From NCBI GenBank assembly GCA_030737835.1, contig CM060853.1, positions 10,102,034-10,166,033 on the forward strand: a stretch of 64,000 nucleotides of DNA, given 5' to 3'. The notes beneath the pieces are model-generated. The model saw only the letters and a program-made list of their open reading frames with translations. It made no database searches and was not told where the DNA came from. Each line of letters starts with the position of its first letter. Position 1 is the first letter of the stretch. Below, piece by piece: positions 29,609-61,272 of this stretch. Source of the stretch: Acorus gramineus (Eukaryota > Streptophyta > Magnoliopsida > Acorales > Acoraceae). Both the position numbers and the translations under genes were made by a program.

Positions 29609-29814
29609 ATTTTATTTACTGTACTCTTTTTCCTTCGTCCAGTTTTTATTTCCCATTGGGTTTTTTTTTTTTTGGCAAGGTTTTAATGAGGTAGTAGTCA
29701 AGTATACACAAGAATATGTACTCTTTTTCCTTCGCTAATTTTTATCCCACGAGGTTTTTCTTAGCAAGGTTTTAACGAGGCATATTGCTTGTGTGAAGGT
29801 CATCCAAGGGGGAG

Positions 29815-39006: not shown

Positions 39007-42000
39007 TGTTATATATGTGTCACTTTTTGGCCTGTTGGTAACCATTGGAGCATTTTAGCAGTTTTTGAAATTTTTCATTTTTCGATCGGAACCGCAAAAT
39101 TTTGGACTGTTAGCTATCGTCCTGAGCTAGAGAACTCCGATTGAAAATCTAACTGCATATTATGTGTCCTGGTGCCATTTTAAGCCACTCATGAAAATTT
39201 CATCGAATTCCGACAACGTTTCCGAAATTTCGCAGTTCCGGGCGTATCCGGGTTTTTAAGTGACTTGCTATATAAAGGGTGAGCTAAAATTTGAGATGCA
39301 CTATTCATCATCCCTACCAAGCTTCCTCTCTCTCCCCTCTCTCCTTTTCTCCCTTTTGAGCCCCTTAGAGCCCTCAAACCCAAAAACCTAAAGCATAAGA
39401 AGTGTAGATCGGGTCCCGATCTACACCCCGGTGCTTTCAAATCCCGATTTCGACCAACCTAGCCCTCCCATCCGTCCCCTTTTCTCCTCAGATCTGAGCC
39501 AAATCGGAGGTGGGAGTAGATCCCGGTGGTAGAGACCGTTGGGGAAGCGTTTCGGTGCGTGGAGAGCAACCGGACGCCTCTCCCTCCCCTTGGTAAGCTC
39601 CTTTTCCTCTTCTTTTTGGCTTAGATGTATGCTAGGATGGGGGTTTTGTGTTTGGGTGGTGGTCGGCGGCTGTGGGAGGCTGTCGGAGGTGGTTGGGGGT
39701 GGTCGGAGGCCGTTGGATGGGTGGTGGAGGTGCTCGGGCATGGGGGTTGCTGGTTCGGGCAGCAGTCAGCACCGGCAGCGCAGCAGGCTGGACGCGCGCG
39801 GGTGTGCGCGCGGGCGTGCGCTCGGGGGGGGGGAGCTGGTGGCCAGCAGAGCGCGCGTGCTGGGTGTGCTGTGCGCGGGTGTGCTGGGCGTGCGGACGCT
39901 GGACGTGCTGTGCGCGGGTGTGCTGGACGTGCACGCGCGGGAGTCGGTGGAGCGCTGGGCGTGCTGGTTGCTGGCGTGCCGGGTGTGCTGGGCGCGCGTG
40001 CAGGGGCGCAGTGCGCGCGGGTGCACCCGGGAGGAGCTGGTCGAGCGGCTGGTGCGAGGAGCTGGTCGAGCGGCTGGTGCGGAGAGCTGTGCGAGCGGAT
40101 GATGCGCGGGGAGTGCGCGCGAGGCGAGCGAGGTGCGCGCGGGGTGCGCGCGGGGCGAGGAGCTGGGCGCGCGGGGCGTGCGGGGTGCTCGCGGGCCAGC
40201 GCAAGGCGTGCGGGGTGCGCGCGGGCGGCCGCGCTGGGGCGCAGAGGGCGCGCGGTACACCCGGGAGGCTCGGCGGCGTGTCCAGGCGACGGGCAGGGGC
40301 CGGCGGTGCGCTGGGTGCGCGGGCTGAGGCGCGGCGGTGCACCCGGGCGGTCGGGTGGCCGTGCGGGTGGTTGCCGGCCGTGCGGGTGGTTGCCGGAGTG
40401 CTCGGGCTAGCGTGCGTGTGGGTCGTATGCACGTTTGCCCGAGTGTTGGGTGTTTGTTGTGTGGGTTTTGTGTATTTTTGATGTCTTTTGTAGTAGTTGT
40501 GGATTTTTACTCATCAGTTGATACACTGTTGCAGATCTCGACGGACGGTCACGCGTCGACCCGACTTCCGGTGAGTGGGACAACCCAACCCAGTTTGGGA
40601 GGCGCTACATGCATTTGGGCGTGTACCGTCCTCCCCTGGGGCAGATAGTTAGTATTAACTGTTGTTTTGAAATCCATGTAAGCATGATGTGTGTGTAGAA
40701 TGCATGCCACCCTAGACTTGTATGTTAGGGACTTGCACCCTTAGGATTTGTGCATGAGCCGTGCATCCTGTCACCCCGCTATCATGCTAGGAAAGCCTTG
40801 ACCTATGCATGCGTCCTATTAGTTTGATTTATTTATTTAAATGCAAACTGTGATATTTATTAGCATGCTTTGGGGAATATAAGGGGGCCTTGCGAGGTTA
40901 ACATTGAGACCTGGGTTAGGGTACTCCGTGTTCCTTGTTTGGTTGGCGGGGTGTCCTACATCGGGACCTCAGGTTGCCCTCCCAAGGTCTCTTTTCCCCA
41001 TTTATGTCTTATTTATTTCCCCGCATCTTGGTTATGCGCGCTGGTAGAATTCTGAATGAATTCAAGACATTAGAGTTGTAGAGATGTGCTGTCAGCGGAT
41101 CCGAGTGGATCATATGCGATGGATAGGCTGTTCTGTTCCCTTCGTTGGATCCGTGTAGAGACTACCTCGGCGTTGGAAAGGTTGTCCCGTGCAGGGGCTT
41201 CCATCAGTAGGCGTCTCCTGATTTGGTAGAAGGACTGCGCTGAATGTGGGAGTGGCCAAACGACCTACGGAGTGGGGAGAGACTATCGGTGGACCAAGGG
41301 TGACCAACAGCCTAGTCAGTCCCAAGAGCCTATGTCACCTATTGAGGGTGAGGGTGAGGGTATGGTGGGCCGGCGATGCGACGACCCACAGGATTGTGTA
41401 AGGATGATTATCAACCTATTAAGTCCCAACATCCTTGGTCACCTATTGAGGGTGAGGGTGAGGGTATGGCGGTTCGGCGATGTGACGAACCCCCGGATTT
41501 GTGTTGTTTATGCCGCTTTGGGGCTGGTGATTTGATTAATATGAACTGTATGCATGGGTTGTGCTATTCACTGAGCGTGTGGCTCACCCCTCGCATAAAA
41601 TCTTTTTCAGTGATCACTGAGGAGGACTTGAAGGAGGAGCTTCCAGAGCGACTACATCAGTAGCGGAGTAGCGCCACGTCCCTCGAGTTGAGGCCATCAG
41701 CATCCTTCTCTTTGTTGTATGTATATATTTCTGTGCTTGGGCACCTAGTTTGGATTATGTATGGATTGTATTTGTGTATATATGGACATGTTGGCTCTCA
41801 CAGGACATATGATTATGTATCGAGTCTGTAGTATGTTTTGATTACAGATTCAGTCTTTTAGCTTCCGCATTTGGTGTATATATTATGTCAGCCCTGCTTT
41901 TATCTGTGTTGTCATTTTAGCTGTTGTGTGAGTATATTATTGAACTCCTGTTTACTGATATCATATATACACTTGTCGCGTCCCGGGGACGGCCGCCCTG

Positions 42001-42010
42001 GGGCGTGACA
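39007..42010 (+). mobile_element. Solo LTR of a Tekay/Del chromovirus
   Basis: TGTTATATATGTGTCAC to GGGGCGTGACA, 3004 bp, with perfect duplication CTCAC at 39002-39006 and 42011-42015. It is collinear with the two LTRs of the element at 46196-57127. A TATATAAAG box lies at about 39269-39277. Bases 39780-40420 are extremely G+C-rich (GCGCGCGGG-type) and produce long spurious frames on both strands. An internal duplication of about 104 bp (GTCACCTATTGAGGGTGAGG units at 41334 and 41438) is also present in the sister LTRs. No internal domain is left, so it arose by LTR-LTR recombination. Confidence 0.95.
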
Positions 42011-42319: not shown

Positions 42320-45300
42320 ATGGCGACAAGCAGTAAGAAACCTTGTTTCCTTTCTTTCCCGAATTTCTTTTTTTTTTCTGTTTGTTTGAACGAATTTCTT
42401 CGTTTTTCCGAAATAGGGTTTCGAAAAAGCTCATAGATTGCGTTTGCATTGTACCTGTGACAGATTGTTTTAGGGTTTTGATTAGTTTATGGAGATCTTA
42501 ACAAAAGAATGTAACAGAATATTTACAATGCAAATAAATTAAGAACGCTTGTTTTTATTTCTTTTTTGATCAAATGTCTTGATTTTTGCGAACAAGAAAT
42601 TCAAAAAATTTAGAGATTTCATTTGCAGAGTAAATGTAACATATTATATTAGGTTTTTCATTAGGGTTTTACATGACATGTAACAGAATATTAAAGCTTT
42701 GAAAATAACTCCAACAGAAATTGACGTTATATTGGGCATCAAATCTGGAAAAAAGAAGTTAAAGGTAATCAGAATTTCCTGTTTTGAATTACATTTAATT
42801 TTTTAAGATGTAACACCGTGTTCATGATTAATGGGTTTGGTTGAACTTTGTTACAGTGAACTATGGCACCAAGCCAAACACGGAGTTCATAAAGCGAAGA
42901 TTTAGGTCCGTGAGCAGACCTAATGCTCCATATATCAAAGAGCAACTTCTGGTTGCATTGGAGGGAGAATCAAGCCATGATCTGAACGATTTCACAAAGT
43001 TGTGCTGCCTGTACTTGTTTGTGGGTTTATTTTACACAAACAGTGGTCACACCATAGGATGGGCTACCTTTCAGTATTTGGAGGACATCAACAACATAAA
43101 GGAGTTCGATTGGTCGTCATCAATACTAGATTTACTGATGAAGTCAATTCATAGGCATCAGAATAACCCAGCAAGTGTGACTGGCTGTGTTGCACTGCTA
43201 CCTGTAAGTTAACAACAAATGCTAACAAATAGTTTAAGCTGAAACTGATATCAATATATTTACTGACACTGTTCTTTTAAATTCTATGCAGTTCTGGTTA
43301 TGTGAGCACACCACTTTGATTTCTCCCTCACGTCCATCAGTGTTCCCAAGGTTCAAGAAATGGGATTTGAAAAAATTCCACAAAACCATGTCGGAGATAA
43401 ACATTCGCAAGATTAAAGCATCACAGGTTAGAATTTGAATACTTATAACTCCATTACTGATTCATGAAATTTATTATTCACATGACTTTATGACAGAACA
43501 TTAGTATACAAACAATGTAACTATAATATTACAAATGTAACAATATAAATATGTGCTACATTGTTTCACACACTATGTGTTGATAATGTAACATTTGTGA
43601 TTTAAAAATTAACATATTTACATTAGCATTCTAGTTAGGTTACTAAATTAAATGAATGTATCTCTTATATTTGGAAGAACTATCTGTCATGACATGTTTA
43701 ATTGTGCAAAAACTTGTTACATTTGTCAAGCTGTCTCCATTCCATATGTTATGTTGTACCAATATAGCAGATATTATTAACAATTGTAATATAAAATGAA
43801 AATGTAACATATCTTATATAATGTTTTGGTTATGTCTAAACTGCACTGATGCAATTAACTATTATGATGATAAATGAAATAAATGAAAATGTTATGACTT
43901 TGTTACATTTTGACTAATATAAACTTGTCTCTTACATGAAAAGTTATCCATAGAAGAGATTGAACCAAGGCTGATAGAGCTGCAGCAGCTGGGGGTAAGG
44001 GCCTCTGCACATATTGATACTGAAAATGAAGAAGAAACATTTGAAAAAAATGAAGAAGATTTGACTGGTAGTGCTAAAGATGGCTGTGGGGAGACTTCAT
44101 CAGAAAATGAGGAATCCAATGAAAAAAATGAGAATAACCCGTCAGGTGAAGAGGAAATTGATAAAGAACTACTGAATAGTGAAGGTGGGGGTGATTCAAC
44201 ACATGGTGGCTGTGGGAATATGAATGTCTGTGCTGATAGTAACAATGAAGACAATCAACCAGTAATGGAAGATGATTGTGGGGGGGCAGTTTGGCGACTC
44301 TGCAATTGAACATCAGAGTGAAGGAATACAGATAAGCAACTTGTCATCAGATAATGTTAAAAAAACTGTTACTATGGAAGCCCAAGAAAAAGAAAACACA
44401 AACCTCGTAAGAACTGTAGCAGCACATGGGATTGACATGCTGAGAATTATGGCAGAGAACAGTAGTAAGAGTTTCAGGTTGAGAACAAGTGCCCGCAATT
44501 TAAATTGCCTTTTCAAGAAATGTGGTTTACTAAGGAGAAAGATCCGTGGGTTAAATCAACAGATAGGAAAATTGAAAATTGTGAAAACAAAATTGAAAAA
44601 AAATGTCAGTCTAAAAGATGATGACATAAAAGGTTACAAAGATCGAGAAAAAAGATATCTGAGTGTCATTGCAAAACATAAACAAATAATCTCTGACATG
44701 GAAGACGATGCCTCGGTGCATGACATTACCCAGAAGACAGCTTTGGATGCAGAGATCATGAGTCTGAAAGAACTGATCACTGAGAAACAGAACATAATAG
44801 CACAGCAGTCTGTAATGCTAGATTTCCTTCAGACACAATACCCATCACAGGAAGCAAAACCCCTTGATGTGATTCCACTTAAGTCGTATACACCAGATAT
44901 TCAATATGTGGAGGTGGACATGGGAGAAGCAAGACATAAAAAGAAAAAGCAGACAAGGTCAATGGTTAGAAGAATCAAGATGAGGGATAGGAAAGTAGCA
45001 AAGGACCCTGAATTTCAATACTCAGATGCTGGAAAAAGAGCCAAAAGAGTGGCTATTGGAGCTCCACAAGAGAAAAAAACCAAAAAACAAAAATTTAATT
45101 TCAGAATTCCAAAAAATAATGTAGCCAAGGCACTGGGACAAAAAGATGTCAAGAAATTGAGGCAAATAGTTGGCCTCACCTCTGGAAGGTAATTTTACTG
45201 TCATAAATTGTTCTGAATATCACATCTTCAATAGTTGTTAAATGTAACTCTTTTTGTATATGCAGTGGACCAATTTGGCAAGGGGGTCTTTCAGTTATAC

Positions 45301-45931
45301 ATTTTGAGGATATCATGTCTATACTGAAAGAGGATGAAATTTTCAGTAATGTGAGTATTTACTTATAAATGTAACAACTATTGAGTAAATGTAACAATTG
45401 TGAATATTACAAACTATATGTAACATATAATGTATTTACTTGTAATTTCTTAGGTCATTGATGGGTATACAGAAATCTTATATGATGAGCAAGGAATTCC
45501 AATGCGGATCAACCGATCTTCATTTTTCGTTTCTGCAAGCATCTCTCAGTCACTGCAAAATGAAAAACAGCGTCACCTCTTCAAGGTGCTAGTGAAAGAT
45601 AGGATAGATCTCAGTCTGTATCAATTCATACACTTCCCTCTGCATAATGAAGGGCATTGGACTTTGGCGGTGTATGACATAGTTGAAAACATATGGAGAC
45701 ACTACAATTCACTACTTCAGGAGTATGCAGACATGGACACACATTTGCAGATGGTTAACAAATTGGTAATCACTACTTAAATTTTCTGACCATATATATG
45801 TTTAACTTAATTTAACTTCTCATGCATATACATTATAATTTACAGATGGACACATTCATTGAACATTACGAAGGAATTAAACCTGGACAGATCATCTCTG
45901 TTCAGAATGCACCGCAGCAGCCTGATTTTTC
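42320..45931 (+). pseudogene. MULE-borne DUF1985 / coiled-coil / Ulp1 (C48) protease-like gene, truncated
   Basis: Candidate exons: 42320-42332, 42697-42764, 42857-43203, 43292-43426, 43944-45188, 45266-45350, 45454-45765, 45846-45931. The first two join in phase but do not fit the third, so the 5' model is uncertain. The first part (ITPTEIDVILGI, FTKLCCLYLF, WLCEHT) is DUF1985-like. Then come an acidic segment (44030-44280), a Lys-rich coiled coil (about 44500-44800) and a basic, NLS-like stretch (44930-45110). The Ulp1 part has the catalytic His in EGHWTL (codon 45655); the usual Asp is Asn in HYNSL (codon 45706). A frameshift lies in the G7 run at about 44279-44285. The exon that should bring the catalytic Cys (DCG) after QQPDFS is absent; the Tekay insertion begins 264 bp downstream. 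Confidence 0.75.
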
Positions 45932-46195
45932 GTAAGTTCATTTACTTTGTTAGGTAATTTCATTATAGAATAAAGGAACATACTGATTAAATGTAACAAG
46001 CCAAAAATGTCACAATCTGGGTATAGTAAATGTAATTACAATGATTAAATTGTGACAGATACCTCTAATGCAACCGACTTATAATTTGATTGTAACACAA
46101 ATAAACTCTGTTACATATCATTAAAATTGTTACATTTCTCTATGTAACGAAAAACTCAGAGTGATTCATAGTACAACATAATATTTGTTATATAT

Positions 46196-49100
46196 GTGTC
46201 ACTTTTTGGCCTGTTGGTAACCATTGGAGCATTTTAGCAGTTTTTGAAATTTTTGCATTTTTCGATCGGAACCGCATATTTTTGGACTGTTAGCTATCGT
46301 CTGAGTTAGAGGACTCCGATTGAAAATCTAACTGCATATTATGTGTCCTGGTGCCATTTTAAGCCACTCATGAAAATTTCATCGAATTCCGGCAACGTTT
46401 TCGAAATTTCACAGTTCCGGGGCGTATCTGGGTTTTTAAGTCGCACACTATAAATAAGTGAGATCTAATTTTTGAAAACACTATTCATCATCCCTACCAA
46501 CCCTTCCCCTCTCTCCTCTTTCTCATTTTTCTTCCATTTGAGGCCCTTAGACCCCTCAAACCCAAAAACCTAAAACCTAGGAAGTGTAGATCGGGTCCCG
46601 ATCTACACCCCGGTGGTTTCAAATCTCGATTCCGGTGAGTTTTACCCCTCCGTCCGCCCTCTCTTCTCCTCTGTTTTGGCCCATTTCGGAGGTGGGAGTA
46701 GATCCGGGCGTTGGAAGCCCTTTGGGAAAGGTTTCGGTGCGCGGAGAGCAACCGAACTTCCCTTCTTCCCCTCGGTAAGCCTCTTTTCCCTCTTTTTCAT
46801 GCTTAGATGTATGTTAGGAGGGTAGATTTGAGGTTGGGAGGCGGTCGACGGCGGTGGGTGGCCGTCGGAGGGCTGTGGTGGTGGTCGGAGGCCGTGGGGT
46901 GGTCGGAGGTGGGTGATGGGGAAGCTCGGGCTGGCAAGCTCTGTTTCGGGCAGCAGGCAGAGCAGCGGCAGCTGCCCAGGCAGCGCGCAGGCTGGGCGCG
47001 CGCGGGCATGCGCGCGTGCGTGCGCGAGCGTGCGTACGCGCGGCGTGCGCGCGGGTATGCGCGGGTCTGGTGCGAGGAGCTGGTCGGGCAGCTGTGCGCG
47101 GGTCTGGTCGAGCGGCTGGTGCGGGGAGATGTGTGAGTGGTCGATGCGCGCGGAGTGCGTGCTGGGGCGCGCGCGTGCGTGCGCGCGAGCGTGCGCGCGG
47201 GCGTGCGCTCGGGGAGAGCTGGAGGCCAGCTAGGCGTGCAAGCGCGGGGAGCTGTGCACGAGGTGATGGCCGAGGCAGGGGTGGTGCGTGCGCGAGGTGA
47301 TGGCCGAGGCAGGGGTGGTGCGTGCGCGAGGTGATGGCCGAGGCAGGGGTGGTGCGTGCGCGAGGTGATGGCCGAGGCAGGGGTGGTGCGTGCGCGAGGT
47401 GATGGCCGAGGAGAGTTCGTGCGGGAGGCAGTGTGGTGCGCGCGGGGGCGCGGCGAGGCAGTGCGGTGCTCACGGGGCGCGGTGAGGCAGCTGTGGTGCG
47501 CGCGAGGCGCGGCGAGGTGCCGGCGGTGCGTGGGGTGCGCGGGCTGAAGCGTGGCGGTGCACCCGGGCGGTCGGGTGGCCGTGCGGGTGGTTGCCGGGGT
47601 GCGGGTGGTTGCCGGAGTGCTCGGGTTAGCGTGCGTACGGGTCGTGTGCACGTTTGCCCGAGTGTGGGTGTTTGTTGTGGGTTTGTATTATTTGTGTATT
47701 TTGGGTATTGTGGATTTATACTCACCAGTTAATACCCTGTCTTGCAGATCTCGACGGACGGTCGCGCGTCGACCCGACTTCCGGTGAGTGGGACAACCCA
47801 ACCCAGTTTGGGAGGCGTTACATGCTTTGGGCGTGTACCGTCCTCCCCTGGGGCACATAGTTAGTATTAACTGCTTTGATATAATCCATGTAAGCATGAT
47901 GTGTGTGTGTAGAATGCATGCCACCCTAGACTTGTATGTTAGGGACTTGCACCCTTAGGTTTTGTGCATGAGCCATGTATCATGTCACCCCGTTATCATG
48001 CTAGGAAAGCCCTGACCTGTGCATGCGTCCTATTAGTTTGATTTATTTAATTAAATGTAAGCTTTAATGTTGATAGCATGCCTTGGGAATATAAGGGGGC
48101 CTTGCGAGGTTAACATTGAGACCCGGGTTAGGGTACTCCGTGTTCCTCGTTTGGTTGTCGGATGTCCTACATCGGGACCTCAGGTTACCCTCCCAAGGTC
48201 TCTTTTCCCCTCCTTGTCTTATTTATTTCCCCGCATCCTGGTTATGCGCGCTGGTGGAATTCTGAGGAATTCAAGACATTAGAGTTGTAGAGATGTGCTG
48301 TCAGCGGATCCGAGTGGATCATATGCGATGGATAGGCTGTTCTGTTCCCTTCGTCGGATTCGTGTAGAGACTACCCGGCGTTAGAAAGGTTGTCCCGTGC
48401 AGGGGCTTCCATCAGTAGGCGCCTCCTGATTTGGAAGAAGGACTGCGCCAAACGTGGGAGTGGCCAAACGACCTACAGAGTGGGGAGAGACTATCGGTGG
48501 ACCGAGGGTGACCAACAGCCTAGTCAGTCCCAAGAGCCTAGGTCACCTGTTGAGAGGTGAGGGTGAGGGTATGGTGGGCCGGCGATGCGACGACCCACAG
48601 GATTGTGTATGGATGATTATCCACCCATTAAGTCCCAACATCCTAGGTCACCTATTGAGGGTGAGGGTGAGGGTAAGGGTATGGCGGTTCGGCGATGTGA
48701 CGAACCCCCGGATTTGGATGTTTATGCCGCTTTGGGCTATTGGCTTGATTTAAATGTGGTTAATATGAACTGTATGCATGGGTTGTGCTATTCACTGAGC
48801 GTGTGGCTCACCCCTCGCATAATTATCTTTCAGTGATTTCTGAGGGAGGAGCTTCGCGAGCGACTACACCAGTAGAGGAGTAGCGCCACGTCCCACGAGT
48901 TTTGAGGCCATCAGCACCCTTCTCTTGTTGTATGTATATATTCTGTGCTTGGGCACCTAGTTGGATTATGTATGGATTTTATTTGTGTATATATGGACAT
49001 GTTGGCTCTCACAGGACATATGATTATGTATCGAGTCTGTAGTATGTTTTGATTACAGATTCAGTCTTTTAGCTTCCGCATTTGGTGTATATATTATGTC

Positions 49101-49221
49101 AGCCCTGCTTTTATCTGTGTTGTCATTTTAGTTGTTGTTTGTAGTATATTGTTGATCTCCTGTTACTGATATCATATATACACTTGCCGCGTCCCGGGGA
49201 CGGCCGCCCTGGGGCGTGACA
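46196..49221 (+). repeat. Tekay 5' LTR
   Basis: 3026 bp. TATAAATA at 46449-46456. G+C-rich block 46960-47640 with a 34-bp minisatellite. Splice-like signals: donor GGTAAGC at about 46772 and acceptor TTGCAG at about 47748, then donor GGTGAGTGG at about 47782. Confidence 0.93.
47259..47420. repeat. 34-bp minisatellite in the Tekay 5' LTR
   Basis: Four near-identical units GAGGTGATGGCCGAGGCAGG-GGTGGTGCGTGCGC plus a partial fifth. The 3' LTR has three diverged units plus a partial (about 55188-55310); the solo LTR lacks the array. Confidence 0.85.
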
Positions 49222-49226
49222 AAAGT

Positions 49227-49238
49227 TGGTATCAGAGC
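49227..49238 (+). promoter_or_regulatory. Tekay primer-binding site (tRNA-iMet)
   Basis: TGGTATCAGAGC, five bases after the LTR end, is complementary to the 3' end of plant initiator methionine tRNA. Confidence 0.93.
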
Positions 49239-49340
49239 CTGGTCCTGTCAGAGCCAAATGTCTTCTTTTCGTAGAGATGAGTCCTAGGATTTCTATATGC
49301 GTATTCTGATCCTAGTGTCTGGTTTTCTTAGGTTGCTGAT

Positions 49341-50160
49341 ATGCCTCCTCGCAGAGGACGGCGCGGACGTGGTCCCTCTCGACCCTTGGAGGTCTCCGGA
49401 CCTGCCAGAGTCGAGGATGCTATTGGTGAGTCCTCAGCCGTGAGGCCAGGATCAGCTCAGGAGCCTCCTGCCTGGGAGCGCGCGTTTGCGCGGTTAGCAG
49501 ATTTGGTAGAGACCCAGACGAGGGTGTTGGCAGATCAGGCACGGGAGATTCGGGAGCTGCGGGCAGCCCGCGAGGCAGTACCGCAGGTTCCCTTGGCGGC
49601 AGATCCGCCTGTGGTACCTGATACACCCCCAGTCCCCGTGGTGGAGATTCCGGCGGCCAGAGTTCAGGATCCTCAGGAGAGGGAGGCGGGGCTAGAGGCA
49701 GCAGCGAGGGTGCAGCAGAGTGGACTCTCAGCCTTTCTGAAGCTCCATCCTCCCGAGTTCCAGGGTCAGACGGAGGACCCCCTTGCTCCAGAGATGGTTG
49801 ATGGAGGTGGATACCATCTTCTCGACGATGCTTTGCACAGACCGCCAGAGGTCTCCCTGGCTACGTTTATGCTGAAGGGTAGCGCCGCCGAGTGGTGGGC
49901 TACTAGATCAGTGGACATCCCAGAGGGATTGGAGCAGCTCACATGGGCGGGATTCAGGGGATATTTCTTGGAGGAGTATTTCCCCTTCTCGACGCGACAG
50001 ATAGTGGAGCGGGAGTTTGAGCAGCTGACTCAGGGCACTATGTCCGTCGCTGACTACTCCACGCGGTTCACGAGGCTGTCCAGATTCGCTCCAGCTCTGG
50101 CGATGGACGAGGGACGAGGTGCCGTCGGTTCGAGCTCGGTCTCAGCAGTGCCATCCGAGT
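49341..50160 (+). CDS. Tekay gag (capsid region)
   Basis: Starts at an ATG after the primer-binding site with a typical basic N-terminus (MPPRRGRRGRG). The capsid-like core shows FLKLHPPEFQG, VSLATFMLKGSAAEWW and FEQLTQGTMSVADY. A short out-of-frame segment at about 49790-49855 is compensated downstream. A net frameshift near 50110 moves the rest of gag into another frame. Confidence 0.85.
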
Positions 50161-51246
50161 GCACGTCACCGCCCATGCTTTCACGAGGTACTCCGACTTA
50201 GTGTCTCGAGCGAAGACCGTCGAGAGAGACCTCGGGATCCAGGTGAGAGCTCCGACCCCGTCGACAGACCAGAGGCCACCCAGAGGCCAGGACAGAGGGC
50301 AGCGGAAGAAGAAGAGGGCCCGCTTCGAGCAGTCAGCGGCTCCCTCTCCAGCAGATGTGGTGCCAGCGCGAGGCCCAGCACCCATCGCAGCAGTGCCAGT
50401 CCAGATGAGGCGACCGGAGACGAGGCGCTGTTATCACTGTCAGCGCGTCGGGCATATTCTGTATAATTGCCCTGACGCAGGCCGACCAGCAGTGATGCCC
50501 CAGCAGCAGTTGCAGCAGCGGCCGTTCCAGCAGCCGTTTCAGCAGCAGCAGCAGCCTCAGCGCCAGCCGCAGCAGCAGCCTCAGCGTCAGCAGCAGCAGC
50601 CACAGGGTGGCCGTGCTGATCAGAGGAGGCAGCCAGCGCAGCAGGCGAGGCGTGCCCCTGCTCCTCAGCCTCAGTTCGTCCAGGGCCGAGTGGCAGCGCT
50701 TTCGGCAGAGGAGGCCCAGGCATCAGGCAGCGTGGTCAGAGGTACTGTTCAGATCTCCCAGCTTCCTGCTTATGTACTATTTGATTCCGGAGCCACCCAC
50801 TCGTTCGTGTCTCCCGCTTTCGCGAGACGGACGGGTGTGGCGTCCGCTCCTCTAGATGCTGTGTTAGAGGTGTCGTTGCCCGTGGGAGACCGGATTCTCC
50901 TCAGTTCGGTGTACCGAGGGTGCACGGTGGAGATCGCGGAGCATGAGTTTCCGGTAGAGCTGGTGGAGCTTGCGATGGCGGATTTTGATGCCATCCTGGG
51001 GATGGATTGGCTTGCAGCTAGTCATGCCAGCATCGACTGTTTCGCCAAGTCGGTGTCGTTCCACCTTCCTGGTCGGAGGTCTTTCCAGTTCGTGGGCGAT
51101 CGAGACGTAGCTCCTCTGGGGTTCGTGTCGTCCATGCAGGCGTGGAGACTCCTTCAGGGTGGATGCGAGGGCTTTCTGGCTTATATTGCTCTGGAGGATG
51201 CACCGCTGCGGGCAGATATCAGTCAGACTCCGGTCGTGGCAGAGTA
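50159..51246 (+). CDS. Tekay gag C-terminus (zinc knuckle) and protease
   Basis: Continues gag in a shifted frame. A CCHC knuckle [14 protein letters not shown] (C-x2-C-x4-H-x4-C) is followed by a Gln-rich tract (about 50500-50650, CAG-type codons) and an aspartic protease with the DSGATHSF active-site motif. A further frameshift lies at about 51245. Confidence 0.88.
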
Positions 51247-52916
51247 CCCGAGGTTTTCCCTGATGATCTTCCGGGATTACCGCCGGATCGCGCGATCGAG
51301 TTTGAGATCAATCTGCTTCCGGGGACCGAGCCGGTTTCGAGGGCTCCGTACCGGATGGCTCCCGCAGAGCTGAGGGTGCTGAAGGAGCAGTTGGAGGAGT
51401 TGCTGGAGAAGGGCTTCGCACGTCCGAGTGTGTCTCCGTGGGGAGCCCCTGTCCTGTTCGTCCGGAAGAAGGACGGTTCACTGCGGCTGTGTATTGATTA
51501 CAGGCAGTTGAATAAGCGGACAGTGAAGAACAAGTACCCGTTGCCGCGGATCGACGATCTGTTTGACCAGCTCCAGGGAGCGTGCGTCTTTTCCAAGATC
51601 GATCTCCGCTCGGGGTACTACCAGTTGAAGATCCGGGAGTCGGATATCTCGAAGACGGCCTTTCGCACCCGGTATGGGCACTACGAGTTCAGAGTACTGC
51701 CATTCGGGTTGACGAACGCGCCGGCGGCCTTCATGGATCTGATGAACCGGGTATTTCGACCCTTCCTCGACTCCTTTGTGGTAGTATTCATCGATGATAT
51801 ATTGGTGTACTCGAGGAGTCTTGAGGAGCACGCTCACCATCTTCGCACTGTCTTGGAGACTTTGGCCAGACATCAGTTGTTCGCCAAGTTCAGCAAGTGC
51901 GAGTTCTGGTTGGAGCGGATGGCCTTTCTGGGCCATGTGATTTCCGGTGAGGGTATAGCTGTGGACCCGGAGAAGACGCTCGCCGTGTCGAATTGGCGTC
52001 GACCGTCGAACCCCACTGAGATTCGTAGCTTCTTGGGCTTGGCGGGTTATTACAGGAGGTTTGTGGAGGGTTTCTCCAAGATAGCCGTTCCTCTTACCCG
52101 CCTCACTCGGAAAGACGTTCGGTTCGAGTGGTCCCCTTCTTGCGAGGAGAGCTTCCAGGAGCTGAAGCGAAGGCTCACCTCAGCGCCAGTTCTTACCCTT
52201 CCATCTGGGAGTGGTGGGTTCGCAGTATACACAGATGCATCGCAGTTGGGTGTGGGTTGCGTCCTGATGCAGCACGGTAAGGTGGTGGCTTACGCGTCTC
52301 GTCAGTTGAAGCCCCATGAGCAGAACTACCCCACCCATGACCTCGAGTTGGCTGCGATCATATTTGCGCTGAAGATGTGGAGGCATTATCTCTACGGAGA
52401 GGAGTTCGAGCTCTTTACAGATCATAAGAGCTTGACGTATCTGCAGTCTCAGCCGGAGCTCAACATGCGACAGAGGCGTTGGGTTGAGTTCCTTACAGAC
52501 TATGACTGTGACATCGCTTACCATCCGGGTAAGGCGAATGTCGTTGCAGATGCGCTCAGTAGGCAGCCCCTGGGCATGGCCGCCCACATGGCTGTCCGTC
52601 GTTGGAGGCTTCTGGAGGAGGCCGCTTGCTGGATCAGTGTTCGAGAGACCCCTGCGGGTGGCTTTTTGGCCAGGCTGGTGGTGCAGCCGGTTCTTCTCGA
52701 CGAGATCCGCACGGCTCAGGCTCAGGACCCGCATTTTATAGTCCTTTCTGAAGGCGTCGCCCGGGGCGAGCGTCAGGACTACCAGATTCGCGCGGACGGG
52801 ATCCTGAGATTCAGAGGCCGAGTGTGCATCCCCGACGACGCAGAGCTGAGGCGGAAGATTCTGGACGAGGCCCATCGCTCGAGGTACACCGTGCACCCTG
52901 GTGGCACGAAGATGTA
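51247..52916 (+). CDS. Tekay reverse transcriptase and RNase H
   Basis: Opens with the conserved linker ([14 protein letters not shown]). RT contains the FIDDILVYS active-site box and LRSGYYQ and RTRYGHYEF blocks. RNase H has YTDAS, the catalytic Glu in DLELAAI, and TDHKSL. The integrase N-terminal region begins before the frame is lost at about 52916. Confidence 0.92.
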
Positions 52917-54122
52917 CAGGGCCTTCGTCGCGGCTACTGGTGGCGCGGGATGAAGACGGATATCGCCCGTTTCGTTGCCCGATGCCTAGTATGCCAGCAG
53001 GTGAAGTCGGAGCATCAGCGCCCTGCGGGGAAGCTGCAGTCCATTGAGATCCCTCAGTGGAAGTGGGAGCAGATCACCATGGACTTCGTCTCGGGTTTGC
53101 CGAGGTCACGTTCGGGTCGCGATGCCATCTGGGTGATCGTCGACCGGCTGACGAAGTCTGCTCATTTCCTCCCCATCCGACTCACCGATTCTCTGGACAC
53201 CCTGGCGCAGTTATTCGTCTCCGAGATTGTCCGACTCCATGGCACTCCAGTCAGCATCATTTCTGATCGAGACGCGCGTTTTACTTCGAGGTTCTGGCGT
53301 AGCCTCCAGCACGCCCTTGGTACGGACCTCCTATTCAGTACAGCGTTTCATCCTCAGACGGACGGCCAGTCGGAGAGGACGATCCAGACCCTTGAGGACA
53401 TGCTGCGGGCCTGTGTACTCGATTTTGGGGGCAGTTGGGAGAGGCACCTTCCGTTGGTGGAGTTTGCCTACAACAACAGCTACCACTCGAGCATCCGGAT
53501 GGCTCCCTACGAGGCACTTTATGGCCGCAGCTGCAGGTCCCCCCTGTGTTGGGATGAGGTCGGAGAGCGCCAGCTAGAGGGACCAGAGATCGTTCACCAG
53601 ACCTCCGAGATGGTGAAGACGATTCGCGAGCGTATCCGAGTCGCTCAGAGTCGTCAGAAGAGCTACGCCGACCGCCGTCGCCGTGAGCTCGCCTTCGAGG
53701 TCGGTGATCATGTGTTCTTGAAGGTGTCCCCGATGAAGGGCATCTTCCGATTCGGTGTGCGGGGCAAGCTGAGTCCGCGTTTCATTGGGCCATTCCTCAT
53801 CCTCGAGCGAGTTGGGGAGGTGGCCTATCGCATAGCTCTGCCCCCACAGTTGGCTCAGGCCCATGACGTCTTCCACGTCTCGCAGCTGAGGCGATACGTC
53901 CACGATCCTGCTCACATCATCCCGTTCGAGCCGCTCGTCTTCGAGCCGGACTTGTCTTTCGTGGAGCAGCCGATTGAGATCATGGACCGCCGCGAGAAGA
54001 GGCTCCGCACCAAGACCGTCCAGCTGGTCAAGGTGCGATGGCAGCACCGTTCCGGTGCCGAGGCCACCTGGGAGCTCGAGGACGCCATGCGTGACGCGTA
54101 TCCGCATCTTTTCCCTTCTTAG
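52917..54122 (+). CDS. Tekay integrase with C-terminal chromodomain-like segment
   Basis: Zinc-finger cysteines in RCLVCQQVK, core domain acidic residues in [15 protein letters not shown] and the Glu in [10 protein letters not shown], then the [10 protein letters not shown] linker. The C-terminus (VKVRWQHRS followed by ATWELED) is the chromodomain-like tail that marks chromoviruses. Ends with TAG at 54120-54122, 48 bp before the 3' LTR. Confidence 0.92.
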
Positions 54123-54157
54123 ATGTATTTGTATTTATTTTGAGGACAAAATTTCCT

Positions 54158-54170
54158 AAGGGGGGGAGAA
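54158..54170 (+). promoter_or_regulatory. Tekay polypurine tract
   Basis: AAGGGGGGGAGAA immediately precedes the TG of the 3' LTR and would prime plus-strand synthesis. Confidence 0.9.
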
Positions 54171-57127
54171 TGTTATATATGTGTCACTTTTTGGCCTGTT
54201 GGTAACCATTGGAGCATTTTAGCAGTTTTAAATTTTTGCATTTTTCGATCGGAACCGCATAATTTTGGACTGTTAGCTATCGTCCTGAGTTAGAGGACTC
54301 CGATTGAAAATCTAACTGCATATTATGTGTCCTGGTGCCATTTTAAGCCACTCATGAAAATTTCATCGAATTCCGGCAACGTTTCAAATTTGCAGTTCCG
54401 GGGCGTATCTGGGTTTTTAAGTCGCACACTATAATAAGTGGATCTAATTTTAAACACTATTCATCATCCCTACCAACCCTTCCCCTCTCTCCTCTCTCCA
54501 TTTTTCTCCATTTGAGGCCCTTAGACCCCTCAAACCAAAAACCTAAAACCTAGGAAGTGTAGTCCCGATCTACACCCCGGTGGTTTCAAATCTCGATTCC
54601 GACGAGTTAGCCCCTCCGTCCCCTCTCTTCTCCTCTGTTTTGGCCCATTTCGAGGTGGGAGTAGATCGGGCGTTGGAAGCCTTTGGAAAGGTTTCGGTGC
54701 GCGGAGAGCAACCGGACTTCCTTCTTCCCCTCGGTAAGCCTTTTCCCTCTTTTTCATGCTTAGATGTATGTTAGGAGGGTAGATTTGTGGTTGGGAGGCG
54801 GTCGGCGGCGGTGGGTGGCCGTCGGAGGGCTGTGGTGGTGGTCGGAGGCCGTGGGGTGGTCGGAGGTGGGTGTGGGGAGCTCGGGCTGGCTGGCTCTGTT
54901 CCGGGCAGCAGGCAGCAGCGGCAGCGGCCCAGGCAGCGCGCAGGCTGGGCGCGCGCGGGCATGCGAGCGTGCGTGCGCGAGCGTGCGTACGCGCGGCGTG
55001 CGCGCGGGTATGCGCGGGTCTGGTGCGAGGAGCTGGTCGGGCAGTTGTGCGCAGGTTGGTCGAGCGGCTGGCGCGGGGAGATGTGTGAGTGGTCGATGCG
55101 CGCAGAGTGCGTGCTGGGGCGCGCGCAGGCGTGCGCTCGGGGAGAGCTGGAGGCCAGCTAGGCGTGCGAGCGCGGGGAGCCGTGCGCGAGGTGATGACTG
55201 AGGCAGGGGTGGTGCGTGCGCGAGGTGATGGCCGAAGTAGGGGTGGTGCGTGCGCGAGGTGATGGCCGAGGCAGGGTGGTCCGTGCACGAGGTGATGGCC
55301 GAGGAGAGTTCGTGCGGGAGGCAGTGTGGTGCGCGCGGGGGCGCGGCGAGGCAGCGCGGTGCTCACGGGGCACGGTGAGGCGGCTGTGGTGGGCGCGAGG
55401 CGCGGCGAGGTGCCGGCGGTGCGCGGGGTGCGCGGGCTGAAGCGTGGCGGTGCACCCGGGCGGTCGGGTGGCCGTGCGGGTGGTTGCCGGGGGTGCGGGT
55501 GGTTGCCGGAGTGCTCGGGTTAGCGTGCGTACGGGTCGTGTGCACGTTTGCCCGAGTGTGGGGTGTTTGTTGGTCTTAAGTACTTATTTGTGTATTTTGG
55601 GTAATTGTGGATTTATACTCACCAGTTAATACCTTGTCTTGCAGATCTCGACGGACGGTCGCGCGACGACCCGATTTCCGGTGAGTGGGACAACCCAACC
55701 CAGTTTGGGAGGCGTTACATGCTTTGGGCGTGTACCGTCCTCCCCTGGGGCACATAGTTAGTATTAACTGCTTTGATATAATCCATGTAAGCATGATGTG
55801 TGTGTGTAGAATGCATGCCACCCTAACTTGTATGTTAGGGACTTGCACCCTTAGGTTTTGTGCATGAGCCATGTATCATGTCACCCCGTTATCATGCTAG
55901 GAAAGCCCTGACTTGTGCATGCGTCCTATTAGTTTGATTTATTTAATTAAATGCAAGCTTTAATATTGATAGCATGCCTTGGGGAATAAAAAGGGGGCCT
56001 TGCGAGGTTAACATTGAGAGCCGGGTTAGGGTACTCCGTGTTCCTTGTTTGGTTGTCGGGGTGTCCTACATCGGGACCTCAGGTTACCCTCCCAATGTCT
56101 CTTTTCCTCATTTTACCTTATGTATTTTCCCCGCATCCTGGTTATGCGCGCTGATGGAATTCAGAGGAATTCAAGACATTAGAGTTGTAGAGACGTGCTG
56201 TCAGCGGATCCGAGTGGATCATATGCGATGGATAGGCTGTTCTGTTCCCTCTGTTGGATCAGTGTAGAGACTACCCCGGCGTTAGAAAGGTTGTCCCGTG
56301 CAGGGGCTTCCACCAGTAGGCGCCTCCTGATTTGGTAGAAGGACTGCGCCGAACGTGGGAGTGGCCAAACGACCTACGGAGTGGGGAGAGACTATCGGTG
56401 GACCGAGGGTGACCAACAGCCTAGTCAGTCCCAAGAGCCTAGGTCACCTGTTGAGATGTGAGGGTGAGGGTATGGTGGGCCGGCGATGCGACGACCCACA
56501 GGATTGTGTATGGATGATTATCCACCCATTAAGTCCCAACATCCTAGGTCACCTATTGAGGGTGAGGGTGAGGGTAAGGGTATGGCGGTTCGGCGATGTG
56601 ATGAACCCCCGGATTTGCGATGTTTATGCCGCTTTGGGCTATTGGCTTGATTTAAATGTGGTTAATATGAACTGTATGCATGGGTTGTGCTATTCACTGA
56701 GCGTGTGGCTCACCCCTCGCATATTGCCTTTTTTTCAGTGATCTCTGAGGGAGAAGCTTCCCGAGCGACTACACCAGTAGAGGAGTAGCGCCACGTCCTT
56801 CGAGTTTTGAGGCCATCAGCACCCTTCTCTTGTTGTACGTATATATCTCTGTGCTTGGGCACCTAGTTGGGATTATGTATGGATTTTATTTGTGTATATA
56901 TGGATATGTTGGCTCTCACAGGACTTATGATTATGTATCGAGTCTGTAGTATATTTTGATTACAGATGCAGTCTTTTTAGCTTCCGCACTTGGTGTATAT
57001 ATTATGTCAGCCCTGCTTTATCTGTGTTGTCATTTTAGTTGTTGTGTGAGTATGTTATTGATTCCTGTTCACTGATATCATATATACACTTGCCGCGTCA
57101 CGGGGACGGCCGCCCTGGGGCGTGACA
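54171..57127 (+). repeat. Tekay 3' LTR
   Basis: 2957 bp, collinear with the 5' LTR but 69 bp shorter. Its first 600 bp differ mainly by loss of single bases in short homopolymers. Target duplication ATATT follows. Confidence 0.93.
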
Positions 57128-57737
57128 ATATTGAATATTAAATCTGGAATCTACAAAACATATATCACTTATGCATCAATATGAATTTAAAAATGTGACA
57201 GATGTCTCTGATGCAATCAGTTAATAACTCGAATGTAATACAGGTACACAACACAAATACACACTGTTACATATCATTAAAATTGTTACATCTTCTCTAT
57301 GTAACCAAAAACCCAGAGTGATTCATATTATAACATAATATTGAATATTAAATCTAGAAACTACAAAACAGACTTCACTTATGCATCAATATGAATTTAA
57401 AATGGGACAGATGTCTCTGATGCAATCAACTAATAACTCGAGCGAAATACAAGTACACACTATCAATGAATTTATATTTGTTACATCTTCAAATGTAACA
57501 ACAACCCAAGACTGATCCATTGTTACATCATTGTGGAAATTAAACCTGAAAAATATAAAAAGAAAATCAATTGAGTCAGAACAAATCACTTATGTATCAA
57601 TCTGCACATTGCTTTATGTATTCTTCACGTGCTTAGTCTTCGGCCTGTAAACCTTTGCTGCCTTCCTTTTTGTCGGTGGTCGCCCTTTGCTTCGAACTTT
57701 TTTAGGTGAATGTACACATCTAACCGGCGATGGTGTT

Positions 57738-57901
57738 ACGCCAACAGAACTGCAGTTAGCATTCGCAGATGAAAAATGCAACAAAGATTCCTGCAAAGAA
57801 TCCATGTATTGTGTACAAAACGCCAACAGAACTGCAGTTAGCATTCGCAGATGAAAAATGCAACAAAGATTCCTGCAAAGAATCCATGTATTGTGTACAA
57901 A
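57738..57901. repeat. 82-bp direct duplication at the transposase 3' end
   Basis: ACGCCAACAGAACTGCAG... starts at 57738 and again at 57820, near-perfect over 82 bp. As 82 is not a multiple of three, it shifts the minus-strand frame of the transposase. Confidence 0.93.
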
Positions 57902-59996
57902 AGACATATTTTTCTTCAGATACAACTGCAGCATCCACAACAAATGAAAATTTGGAATATAATTCATTATGCCTCGACATGTGATCATTTGACATGTTGT
58001 CAAAATAACAATTCTTCAAAGCATTATGAATTCTTTTGATGCCCTTCCGCCAGCGATCCATAATGTAATATGAAGAAACTACACTCGTGTTTGTATGTAT
58101 CAAAACTTTAATACAATGCCTACATATGATACCCATGAACTCAAATAGACAACAAACACATCGAAACTCCTGTTTCAATTCATCAAACTTAACCTCATAA
58201 GCTGTTTTCTTTGTTGCTCCATCTTTGCCTTTTGAAACATCAGTGACAACAAAAGCTCTCACGCCACCTAAATCCGAAACTTCTACCAAATTGCAAAAAA
58301 TCAACCCCTTGATTTCATTCTGAAATTTCCTAAACATATCATGTGTATATGCTTCTTCAAACTGCCTCTCAAACTCAAAATCAGTAAGCAATGGAATGCT
58401 TGAGTTAACCGATTGAAAGTCAGCCCTTTCTTCCTTCTCAACCTTACTTCTCAGTGCATTATCGTATTGTTCCACAAATTGCTTCAAAGTCGTTTTTGAG
58501 TTCACATAGTCATCAAAAAAAGCATTCATACTTTCACTTCTCTGAGTAGTTGACATACCAGCCCAAAAGGTTTCTTTAACGTATACAGGAGCCCATCTTG
58601 TTCGGTCGTTGAATAGACATGTGAGCCAGACATTGTTGCTCAGACCATGATCCAAAATCATTTCCATCCACTGCTTGTCGAAAACATCAGCAGTTAAAGA
58701 CTCGTAAACTATTGCCTTCAAGCATTTCTTAATAACATCATAACTCTTGCAACTGCAAAAATGTATCAGGAAATTAAATTGAAACCATTATAAAAATGTA
58801 GAACTTCATCTGCAATCAAATGACAATGAATATTGCACTGCTAATAACATGACGTGAAATGTAACAATAATAAAATAAATGTAACAAAAAACAAGTAAAA
58901 TAACAAACCTGCCCAGTTTCTCAGGAATCTTCTTCATGATATGCCACAGGCACAATCTGTGGTGAGAATGAGGAAAAACCTCTGACACAGCCCCTTGTAT
59001 GGCCTTGCATTGGCCAGTCACTATAGCATTTGGCATACGTCCATACATGCACTCCAACCATGCTTTGAATAGCCACACGTATGTTGCAGTATTTTCGTTG
59101 GATAATAGACCGCATCCAAACAAGACCGATTGTCCATGATGGTTTACACCAACAAAAGGTGCAAATGGCATATCATACTTGTTCGTCAAATATGTTGAGT
59201 CAAATGAAATAACGTCTGAAAATGACTCATATAATGCTCGTGATCTCGCATCAGCCCAAAAAATATTTCTTACTCTGAAATTCTCATCAAAATCAATAGC
59301 ATGAAAAAAATTTGGATTTCGCTTTTGCATGCGCACGAAATAATCACAAACAGTTTGTGCATCGCCTCCACCAAGCCTTCCAATTCTAGTTTTAGACAAG
59401 TAATTCCTTGCATCTCTCTCCTCATATGATATGCAATCGTATCCCCCAGCTTTAATAACAAGTGAATTAAAACTTTTTGATGTTCTGATCCCTGCTTGGT
59501 CATTTATATCCAGCACTCTTTTTGAAAAAGGATCAATTTCCCTATGGCAAGCAAAATGCCGTGACTTAAGTGGACTCAAATGATGGTTATGACCTAAGAC
59601 AACCTTTGAAATAACAAACAATTCTCCATCCTTCACATTAATGTTTATCCTAGCTCCGCACCCAGACTTGATCGGTGACCTACCACTGAAAACATTCCTC
59701 CCTGTGGAAACATGCTTCCCATTCCGACAACATGCAAGTGAAAAAAATCTTGGTCGCCCATTGTCATCCTTTTTACCGTGAATCTTCGCAATGCCAAAAC
59801 CTTCACTGTGAGCAAAGTTTTTATAAAACATCCTAACATCATTTTCCGAGCAAAATGACATTCCAACACTTGGAACAATAACTTCAGTACTATGCTCATC
59901 AAAAACATCGATTTCACCTTCTATTGCACTGCCTTCCAAAGAAAATGTAGCAGATTCCCCTGCACAAGTATCTACTTCACTGTTACATTTATGCAT
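57756..59996 (-). CDS. FAR1-type MULE transposase, two exons
   Basis: Exons 59996-58909 and 58752-57756 (intron 58908-58753, 156 bp, GT-AG) join in phase to 694 aa. The FAR1 DNA-binding domain (residues about 45-150) has Cys residues in LACCRNG and SGCGA and the pair in GHNHH. The MULE transposase domain follows with the first Asp in ISFDSTY and CLWHI, and the Glu in TQRSESMNAFF. Where the family has TDQ-x-KA it reads TGQCKA, so the second catalytic Asp is missing. The SWIM finger C-x-C-x(n)-C-x-H is present (CVCCLFEF, ICRHC). An 82-bp duplication replaces the original C-terminus, whose basic GRPPTKRK (AT-hook-like) end survives out of frame at about 57720-57615. The start at 59996 is the first ATG of the open frame; an upstream exon is possible. 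It is convergent with the DUF1985-Ulp1 gene. Confidence 0.85.
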
Positions 59997-60030
59997 AAAT
60001 TAAATTCAAATGTTTAAAGAAATGCAGTAC

Positions 60031-60552
60031 ACAGTGACTGCTACATGTTAGATATCCCCTGCAACAATATAAACTTCATTGTTACAATTACATATAATTT
60101 CTATTTTCATAGTTGAAAAAAAATGCAGTACATGAGTGATTGTCACATGTTGGACCGTTACATTTATGAATGTAACAAAATTAGAAAACGTGTATTCGAG
60201 ATGAGGATTGAAATATTAACATCACACAAACCATTATGTATTAAATGTAACGATATCAAAAGTAACAATTATGAAAATATATCGAAACCTACACAGTGAC
60301 TGCTACATGTTAGATATCCCCTGCATCAGTATAAACTTCATTGTTACAATTACATATAATTTCTATTTGCATAGTTGAAAAAAAATGCAGTACATGAGTG
60401 ATTGTTACATGTTGGACCGTTACATTTATGAATGTAACAAAATTAGAAAACGTCTATTCGAGATGAGGATTGAAATATTAACATCACACAAACCATTATG
60501 TATTAAATGCAACGATATTAAAAGTAACAATTATGAAAATATATCGAAACCT
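60031..60552. repeat. 262-bp tandem duplication upstream of the transposase
   Basis: Two near-identical units (ACAGTGACTGCTACATGTTAG... at 60031 and 60293) directly upstream of the transposase start. Each holds TTGTTACAA, CGTTACATT, AATGTAACAA and AATGTAACG-like motifs. Confidence 0.9.
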
Positions 60553-60650
60553 AATAAAAAGATGCGAAATAGCGATCAATAAATAAACGAGTTTCATTCC
60601 TCTTAATTGGTACATGTAACATATATTGAAAAATTGATCATCACAAATTT

Positions 60651-61040: not shown

Positions 61041-61272
61041 GGTTGACGATGATCTGCAAATACAAAACCTAAATGATCGGCAGTTGTAAATCTCCCCAAT
61101 ATGCGGTTGGAATAAAAATCAATTGTGACGCCATAGTCGGATCAGATCTGTAACCGTCTACTGATCCCCAAAATGTATAAAGGGTATTATGGACAATGTG
61201 TGTATGCCATGTCATGGGGCCTGGTTTGGGGCCTGTGAATTTGGGGCTTGGGAATCATTATTGTTATTTTAA

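Follow-up and report, generated by a model that had tools for sequence, protein, structure and literature searches.

A probable VANC-type anti-silencing system in a FAR1-type MULE of Acorus gramineus, an early-branching monocot

Introduction

Sequence-specific anti-silencing by transposable elements has so far been characterised in the VANDALs of Arabidopsis, namely, in the VANDAL21/VANC21 and VANDAL6/VANC6 systems (PMC5735166). Among other MULEs, a ULP sequence has already been reported in Jittery-like elements (melon and grapevine), and VANDALs that carry KIU are reported to recognise motifs in elements of their own kind; the cited portions of these reports describe neither motif arrays in Jittery-like ULP MULEs nor any monocot case (PMC2528002, PMC13317346). 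For MuDR-group MULEs, genes of the plant mobile domain (PMD) that lie antisense to the transposase have been listed (PMC6446971). Anti-silencing by a MULE-borne PMD has also been speculated on by Ikeda et al., whose PMD-MULEs are transposase fusions of grasses and Amborella for which the cited text gives no cognate motif (PMC5418596, PMC7156037, PMC6446971).

Here, we describe a MULE in a stretch of 64 kb of A. gramineus DNA (the window) and compare it with these systems. As in VANDAL21 and VANDAL6, the MULE carries its own protein with the same predicted fold (as modelled for a relative), the short family-specific motifs form arrays in introns, intergenic DNA and a promoter, with one orientation prevailing, and the arrays expand by tandem repeats, with protein and motif diverging between families (PMC5735166). 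Unlike VANDAL21 and VANDAL6, however, the Acorus element resides in an early-diverging monocot and has a FAR1 transposase, recognisable TIRs and a ULP-like tail, and its motifs ATGTAACA, ATGTAACTAA and TGTATCTKAA differ from the YAGTATTAY and AGTTGTMC of the VANDALs (PMC5735166). The Arabidopsis VANC systems have, moreover, functional tests, whereas the Acorus system is predicted from sequence and fold. The ULP-like gene is opposite in orientation to the transposase, as in the KAONASHI (KIU) KI-MULEs, but those are non-TIR elements (PMC2528002, PMC13317346).

Results

By comparison of TSDs and TIRs in the 64-kb window, the MULE was delimited to 38966-61263, wider than the extent originally predicted, with the 9-bp TSD TTATTTTAA on either side (38957-38965 and 61264-61272). 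The outer part of the left TIR (38966-39006, + strand), recognised by an end-to-end match, is interrupted by a solo LTR of a Ty3-like element (39007-42010, + strand; 5-bp TSD CTCAC) and resumes at 42016. It agrees with the right end at 37 of 60 positions, which is the best of all positions in the window (runner-up, 31), and none of 20,000 shuffles reached an equal score. The right TIR (61143-61263, - strand; inner limit approximate) matches the left end at 43 of the outer 70 positions. A degenerate TIR of ~70 bp is to be set against the VANDAL trait of no TIR or a short degenerate one, and TIRs are known in some elements of the VANDAL clade (PMC6446971). A Ty3/gypsy element (46186-57127, + strand; 5-bp TSD ATATT; LTR-LTR K2P 0.037) is nested within the MULE. 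Features of the MULE superfamily are present, namely, the MULE transposase domain PF10551 (E 1.5e-34) and the TSD of ~9 bp, and the element is an old, defective copy of a large multi-copy family.

The transposase is encoded on the - strand by exon 1 (58909-59999), with a FAR1 DNA-binding domain (4e-10) and the MULE catalytic domain (1.5e-34), and by exon 2 (57614-58755), a SWIM-containing exon that a perfect tandem duplication of 82 bp (57738-57902) disrupts; SWIM scored 20.2 bits on the exon (cut-off, 19.6) and 19.4 on the joined protein. An N-terminal FAR1 combined with SWIM or CCHC, as found here, is the domain combination of the Jittery group in PMC6446971, which records FAR1 for certain other groups as well. 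Dioscorea alata supplies the best match of the transposase, an FHY3/FAR1-family protein with 54% identity. Judging from sequence, the FAR1 domain points away from the VANDAL clade and to another group.

In the opposite orientation (+ strand), the MULE carries a VANC-like gene, in which the exons for a PMD/DUF1985-like domain (42696-42765, 42857-43203 and 43292-43428; limits approximate) are followed by an exon for acidic and coiled-coil regions (43945-45189), whose reading frame is broken within a run of G near 44284, and by ULP/C48-like exons (45454-45932), which were assigned by alignment to a Camellia homologue (P0005) carrying Peptidase_C48. In a domain scan, the ULP/C48-like exon of the window alone gave no C48 match. 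The window copy also has no counterpart to the first part of the PMD/DUF1985-like domain present in a sibling copy, and the last exon (ECG...) of the sibling at L017+L078 is missing. A protein encoded on the MULE had been predicted to contain DUF1985, but the match is sub-threshold: DUF1985 scored 16.8 bits in the window and 21.9 bits in the sibling (profile positions 6-141 of 141), below the Pfam cut-off of 35.1, and PMD outscored it with 28.5 and 29.2 bits, respectively, still under its cut-off of 34.9. Indeed, neither DUF1985 nor PMD was found above the Pfam threshold in the window, the sibling or the 10 homologues scanned. The sub-threshold match of the DUF1985-like region to PMD (E 6.7e-7) is nonetheless a likeness to PMD-bearing MULEs and to the host proteins MAIL1/MAIN (PMC5418596, PMC7156037, PMC6446971). 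The predicted structure of a relative of the window's protein, which was modelled in place of the window's own product, matches the fold of VANC21, for which a structure on such a motif has been solved (VANC21-DNA entry 9lnj). When the family alignment was run as a profile against the PDB, all matches were weak (best E 0.019) and lay mainly in the coiled coil, and VANC21 was not among them.

The dense ATGTAAC array of the original prediction was borne out by exact counting: the window contains 40 copies of ATGTAAC/GTTACAT, and 34 of these are in the MULE outside the nested LTR retrotransposons. The remaining six (25773, 27822, 29385 and 36216, plus 47817 and 55714 inside LTRs) agree with the few predicted elsewhere, and the predicted coordinates are correct within ~10 bp where compared. 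As also predicted, the array lies in non-coding DNA (33 of the 34 sites), with the exception at 59982 touching the first codons of the transposase. An order-2 Markov model built from the element's own non-coding DNA gives 1.95 expected sites (about two had been predicted) against the 33 observed (P 6e-29), placing ATGTAAC first among all 7-mers. The enrichment does not come from a few tandem duplications only, because 24 non-coding copies against 1.47 expected (10^-20.4) are left after removal of internally repeated stretches. The predicted scarcity in coding exons, by contrast, was not a depletion but a background level (1 seen, 0.58 expected). The leading 7-mers of 12 control windows taken elsewhere (3.8 kb each) were mostly low-complexity or local-repeat words, and the strongest was CGGGTCC at 31.7-32.6 kb (18 copies, 10^-23.8), a two-ended cluster.

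The 34 sites share the 7-bp core within largely heterogeneous flanks and form five clusters. Ten sites (eight on the + and two on the - strand) are in introns of the VANC-like gene (42509-43908), and eight (45242, 45369, 45389, 45418, 45991, 46110, 46129 and 46142; cluster 45242-46148) are in introns and an intergenic stretch. Six are located in the diverged tandem repeats that separate the convergent genes (57266-57528), and the intron of the transposase holds two, with a spacing of 20 bp (58859-58885). The last eight (59982, 60157, 60170, 60245, 60404, 60419, 60432 and 60614; cluster 59982-60620) are at and upstream of the transposase start, partly within a 97% tandem duplication (60028-60553). 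The outer ~530 bp on the left, with the nested LTR removed, and ~640 bp on the right are site-free.

Enrichment in other family members, a test set by the original prediction, was passed as well: ATGTAAC ranks first among 7-mers in 27 of the 29 other copies examined in the A. gramineus genome (up to 37 per 3.35 kb), and it was not the top word at L027 and L034, two of the 30 best loci. Many sites are intronic, most of them in the sense orientation of the VANC-like gene, and many fall within tandem repeats in the four siblings examined; in several copies, furthermore, one intron contains a 130-bp segment of another in inverted form. Nearly all sites of two divergent class-A families are in DNA that is no longer alignable, and the motif is thus retained where the surrounding DNA has diverged. 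Abutting motif pairs were not enriched genome-wide (13 versus 10 for a reversed-pattern control); among eight such loci inspected, a dense cluster was present at L005 alone (8 copies in 3 kb), and no match to the element's proteins was found within 30 kb of it. In class A, unique same-strand spacings hinted at helical phasing, both in the divergent families (33 spacings; R 0.43 at 10.5 bp; jitter P 0.0005) and in the main family (69 spacings; R 0.25; P 0.012; best period 11.75). Class C gave no such hint (42 spacings; P 0.26), and phasing is not claimed.

Across 66 loci, three VANC-like clades carry three motifs, AAATGTAACA, AAATGTAACTAA and TGTATCTKAA, in classes that were defined after the first 12 divergent loci had been seen. 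Motif use is nearly exclusive per class, with the boundary following the VANC-like clade, and the motif classes need two changes on the protein tree, the fewest possible for three classes and three clades; clade B is weakly supported (84/36). The predicted co-variation of motif and encoded protein among related families is therefore present. Since protein and array reside on one element, however, common descent alone would be expected to produce co-variation with only two changes, which could be co-inheritance. In a comparison with the one class-C locus traced to a transposase, class-A and class-C transposases were 60% identical in the FAR1 part, 83-93% in the catalytic part and 59-76% in the C-terminal part. 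No transposase was found in the 8.4 kb examined (including 5 kb of flank) at L046, the only class-B locus traced.

Discussion

We consider it probable that this FAR1-type MULE family of an early-branching monocot possesses a VANC-type, self-recognising anti-silencing system, in which binding and demethylation are inferred. The original prediction of such a system is supported in part, by the non-coding array, its recurrence with tandem expansion, the co-variation and the VANC21 fold of a relative; the window copy is damaged and cannot itself be a working system. The family encodes a VANC-like protein and holds AAATGTAACA arrays in introns, intergenic DNA and the transposase promoter. The protein of working copies most likely binds the motif of its own element where it is dense, and would then counteract host silencing along that element, with presumed loss of silencing marks; expression of both genes would be restored, with other families unaffected. 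At related loci in the same genome, other VANC-like clades are paired with AAATGTAACTAA or TGTATCTKAA, and the arrays expand and turn over through tandem duplication.

Spm and Ac have subterminal repeats, an analogue for transposase-binding sites, and the motif might likewise be bound by the element's own transposase through the FAR1 domain, for synapsis or autoregulation. Such a DNA-binding domain is present, its region is among the less conserved between classes A and C, and eight sites are upstream of or at the transposase start; as the transposase also differs between these classes, binding by it is still conceivable. It is nevertheless unlikely, given that the outer ends of the element are free of sites that occur instead in introns and between genes, that the motif is wholly different between A and C despite the similar catalytic part, and that the solved precedent for binding such a motif belongs to the VANC21 fold. 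The cores GTTAC and TAACA are similar to regulatory sites known from plants, and this resemblance, together with the sites upstream of the transposase, would fit enhancers bound by a host factor (e.g., a trihelix or MYB-type regulator) with no relation to the VANC-like protein. Related loci in the same host, however, have different and nearly exclusive motifs with a boundary that tracks the VANC-like clade, and we regard a host factor as quite improbable.

Passive spread, in which a single functionless ancestral sequence was multiplied as intron segments duplicated in tandem, and an RNA-level intron signal (splicing or branch point) are both ranked low. The former would explain the sites in tandem repeats of the four siblings and the inverted 130-bp segment, and also the excess of one-mismatch variants of ATGTAAC (37, where the rest of the window predicts 15.0), which may be older sites in decay. 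It is very improbable in view of the heterogeneous flanks around the 7-bp core, the 24 copies left without repeats and the persistence of the motif in non-aligning DNA of the divergent families. The intronic position of many sites, mostly sense to the VANC-like gene, is what an RNA signal would predict, but the two sites in the intron of the transposase run antisense to that gene, and further clusters lie between the genes and upstream, in either orientation, making this explanation barely credible.

The VANC-type system thus remains the reading that we prefer. An EMBO J paper of 2022 on VANC coevolution reportedly places the origin of VANC-type anti-silencing in eudicots, and our literature search, which covered titles and abstract openings with subscription papers mostly beyond reach, found no report of such a system in a monocot. 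We give even odds to VANC-type anti-silencing not being a eudicot invention, with Acorus FAR1-type MULEs having three or more nearly exclusive specificities and a PMD/DUF1985 fold akin to that of host silencing factors such as MAIL1/MAIN. The Acorus lineage represents an early split from all other monocots; if true, the same fold, arrays and co-variation in a FAR1-type MULE of this lineage would mean an earlier origin or repeated capture, and TE-borne anti-silencers would be linked to the PMD silencing proteins of the host. At least three specificities in one genome would, furthermore, constitute a natural protein-motif series for reading the recognition code, and these many natural pairs may thereby offer a route to how VANC specificity evolves.

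Element structure and genes

The element (38966-61263) lies between two copies of the duplicated 9-bp sequence TTATTTTAA (38957-38965 and 61264-61272), which sit immediately outside terminal inverted repeats that match at 37 of 60 positions; when the left end was compared with all positions of the window, the right end was its best match. Two retroelements are nested in it, a solo LTR at 39007-42010 and, at 46186-57127, a Ty3-like element, each bounded by a 5-bp duplication of its own. The two LTRs of the Ty3-like element differ by a K2P distance of 0.037, and 8,342 bp remain when both retroelements are subtracted. Also, LTRs about 72-83% identical to the window's were noticed in or beside other MULE copies, at varied places (loci L013, L024, L034, L038, and L079-L081).

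On the minus strand, the transposase has FAR1, MULE, and SWIM domains, of which SWIM scored just over the cut-off on the exon and just below it in the joined protein; the best match of the transposase, at 54% identity, is a Dioscorea alata protein of the FHY3/FAR1 family. The VANC-like gene lies tail to tail with it on the plus strand and comprises a PMD/DUF1985-like domain, followed by an acidic, coiled-coil region and a ULP-like tail. Its nearest relatives are proteins of Acorus gramineus and A. calamus, followed by one of Davidia and one of Camellia. Pfam scores of the domain were sub-threshold both in the window (PMD 28.5, DUF1985 16.8 bits) and in a fuller sibling (29.2 and 21.9 bits), and neither family exceeded the cut-off in any of the ten homologues scanned. 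Peptidase_C48 was found in three scanned Camellia homologues (P0005, P0006, and P0012), while a search of the tail of the window's own gene gave no match. The window copy is broken: it lacks the domain's initial part and the final ULP exon (each found in the sibling L017+L078), the coiled-coil frame is interrupted at a G run, the transposase is interrupted by an exact 82-bp duplication, and two retroelements are nested in it. As a separate observation, the coiled-coil exon of the family also forms the start of an A. gramineus protein predicted to be cytochrome P450 71A1 (P0002), through either a fusion in the annotation or exonisation of a piece of the transposon.

The motif array

An exact listing gave 40 copies of ATGTAAC/GTTACAT in the window, 34 inside the element without its nested retroelements and 6 in the remaining 55,658 bp, just as the original prediction had it (about 34, with only a few elsewhere). 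In 3,815 non-coding bp of the element, as delimited by our own approximate exon limits, ATGTAAC ranked first of all 7-mers with 33 copies against 1.95 expected (P = 6e-29); the words ranked second to fifth overlap with it, and 24 copies against 1.47 expected were left upon removal of repeated stretches. The exons, supposed to be almost free of the motif, carry it at background frequency and not below. The 34 sites share the 7-bp core, with A preferred two bases upstream (26/34) and one base downstream (27/34). One-mismatch variants (21 kinds) numbered 37, none exceeding five, where the rest of the window would predict 15.0; they may be decayed sites.

Several other repeats were noticed in the window. 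A Copia-like element (24559-30080), in which three of the six background ATGTAAC hits fall, has 266-bp LTRs (24559-24824 and 29815-30080) that are 99.6% identical and is a recent insertion. CGGGTCC forms two nine-copy clusters separated by about 0.6 kb (31731-32573), which look like the terminal repeats of a small DNA transposon, and at 18216-19095 there are foldback-like inverted arms, 89% identical, with units of about 30 bp carrying ACCCCCT.

Other copies and motif classes

A domain search of the same genome gave at least 215 matches, each exon being counted on its own and 150 of the 391 candidates having been scored. The enrichment extends to these copies: ATGTAAC was the top 7-mer in 28 of the 30 best loci (the window among them; 3.34-3.36 kb per locus), with a mean of 23.3 and a maximum of 37 copies, the exceptions being L027 (3 copies) and L034 (8 copies, much of the locus being taken up by an LTR). 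A fuller sibling element has 47 copies in 7,475 bp, and TRF on four loci detected motif-bearing units of about 20, 103-107, 126, 255, and 281-288 bp. In two loci (L036 and L040), internal deletions fuse the VANC-like gene straight to transposase sequence, and the arrays are kept (27 and 26 copies). Apart from these, L010 (G000:C4:26347762-26348043) has seven ATGTAAC copies within about 290 bp, every one on the minus strand and six of them, by eye, with a class-B-like flank, AGTTACAT; no match to the element's proteins was found in the 30 kb fetched around this cluster.

A further 36 divergent loci (12 + 24) were hand-picked from the listed domain hits to cover the identity range. With the domain exon masked and the classes fixed after the first 12 divergent loci had been inspected, 66 loci fell into class A (ATGTAACA; 36 loci), class B (ATGTAACT; 6), and class C (TGTATCT; 23), leaving L027 in no class. 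Mean copies per locus of ATGTAAC and TGTATCT were 22.2 and 0.8 (maximum 4, in L020) in class A, 5.5 and 0 in class B, and 0.3 and 13.4 in class C. The consensus can be extended to AAATGTAACA, AAATGTAACTAA, and TGTATCT(T/G)AA, respectively; the class motif is unrelated to the top word of L060, L071, and L073. In the class-C loci (L048-L051, L053, L059, and L061-L077), we also noticed frequent inverted pairing of the motif (AGATACA-NN-TGTATCT, start-to-start distance 9 bp); the 30 adjacent pairs, in 19 of the 23 loci, suggest a dimeric site.

Origin of the co-variation and candidate binders

In the maximum-likelihood domain tree, each class forms one side of a branch (support: A, 100/99; C, 100/100; B, 84/36), and the class changes twice, the minimum possible, against a mean of 24.4 in shuffles (0/200 as low). 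Such co-variation is consistent with co-evolution of motif and protein and also with plain co-inheritance, since the gene and the array travel together. With six class-A sequences as the reference for alignable DNA, only 1 of 19 sites in L044 and 1 of 23 in L054, both divergent class-A families, lie inside alignable blocks; the numbers are 4 to 9 of 10 to 19 sites in the other five such families and 0 to 2 of 3 to 9 in the six class-B loci. Thus, the same 7-mer has been re-made or kept through turnover of the DNA around it, which points to constraint.

The array might instead consist of putative binding sites of the element's transposase, a reading weakened by two points. The motif is missing from the outer ~530 bp (left) and ~640 bp (right) and clusters in introns and between the genes, which speaks against subterminal transposase sites. 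Furthermore, a class-C element (L049+L079+L081), the one compared, is laid out in the same way, with a VANC-like gene, its ULP-like tail and a transposase convergent to it, and has TGTATCT 64 times in its first 8.6 kb and 71 times in 13.1 kb, with no ATGTAAC; its transposase is nonetheless better conserved relative to the window's (catalytic part 83-93%, FAR1 part 60%, C-terminal part 59-76% identical) than are the VANC-like domain (46%) and the coiled-coil exon (24%). Near one class-B locus, no transposase was found within the 8.4 kb followed.

Relation to known systems

As described by Hosaka et al. (PMC5735166), the motifs of VANC21 and VANC6 are YAGTATTAY and AGTTGTCC/AGTTGTAC, located in introns and in intergenic and terminal non-coding DNA in one orientation; the arrays evolve through tandem repeats, and VANC is variable, the transposase being more conserved. 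The Acorus system is alike in these architectural points, but its motifs differ, the element is a FAR1-type TIR-MULE, and the host is a monocot. According to a review (PMC13317346), VANDALs that carry KIU recognise the motifs of their own kind, and the Ulp1 capture, conserved in eudicots, dates to the monocot-eudicot separation. ULP sequences were reported in Jittery-like MULEs of melon and grapevine (PMC2528002), and an anti-silencing role of MULE-borne PMDs is a speculation of Ikeda et al. (PMC5418596). Given that the VANC21/VANC6 architecture, the KIU motifs, ULP in Jittery-like MULEs, and the speculation on PMDs are already published, the Acorus system is not categorically new; it is best read as a variant on the known VANC-type theme.
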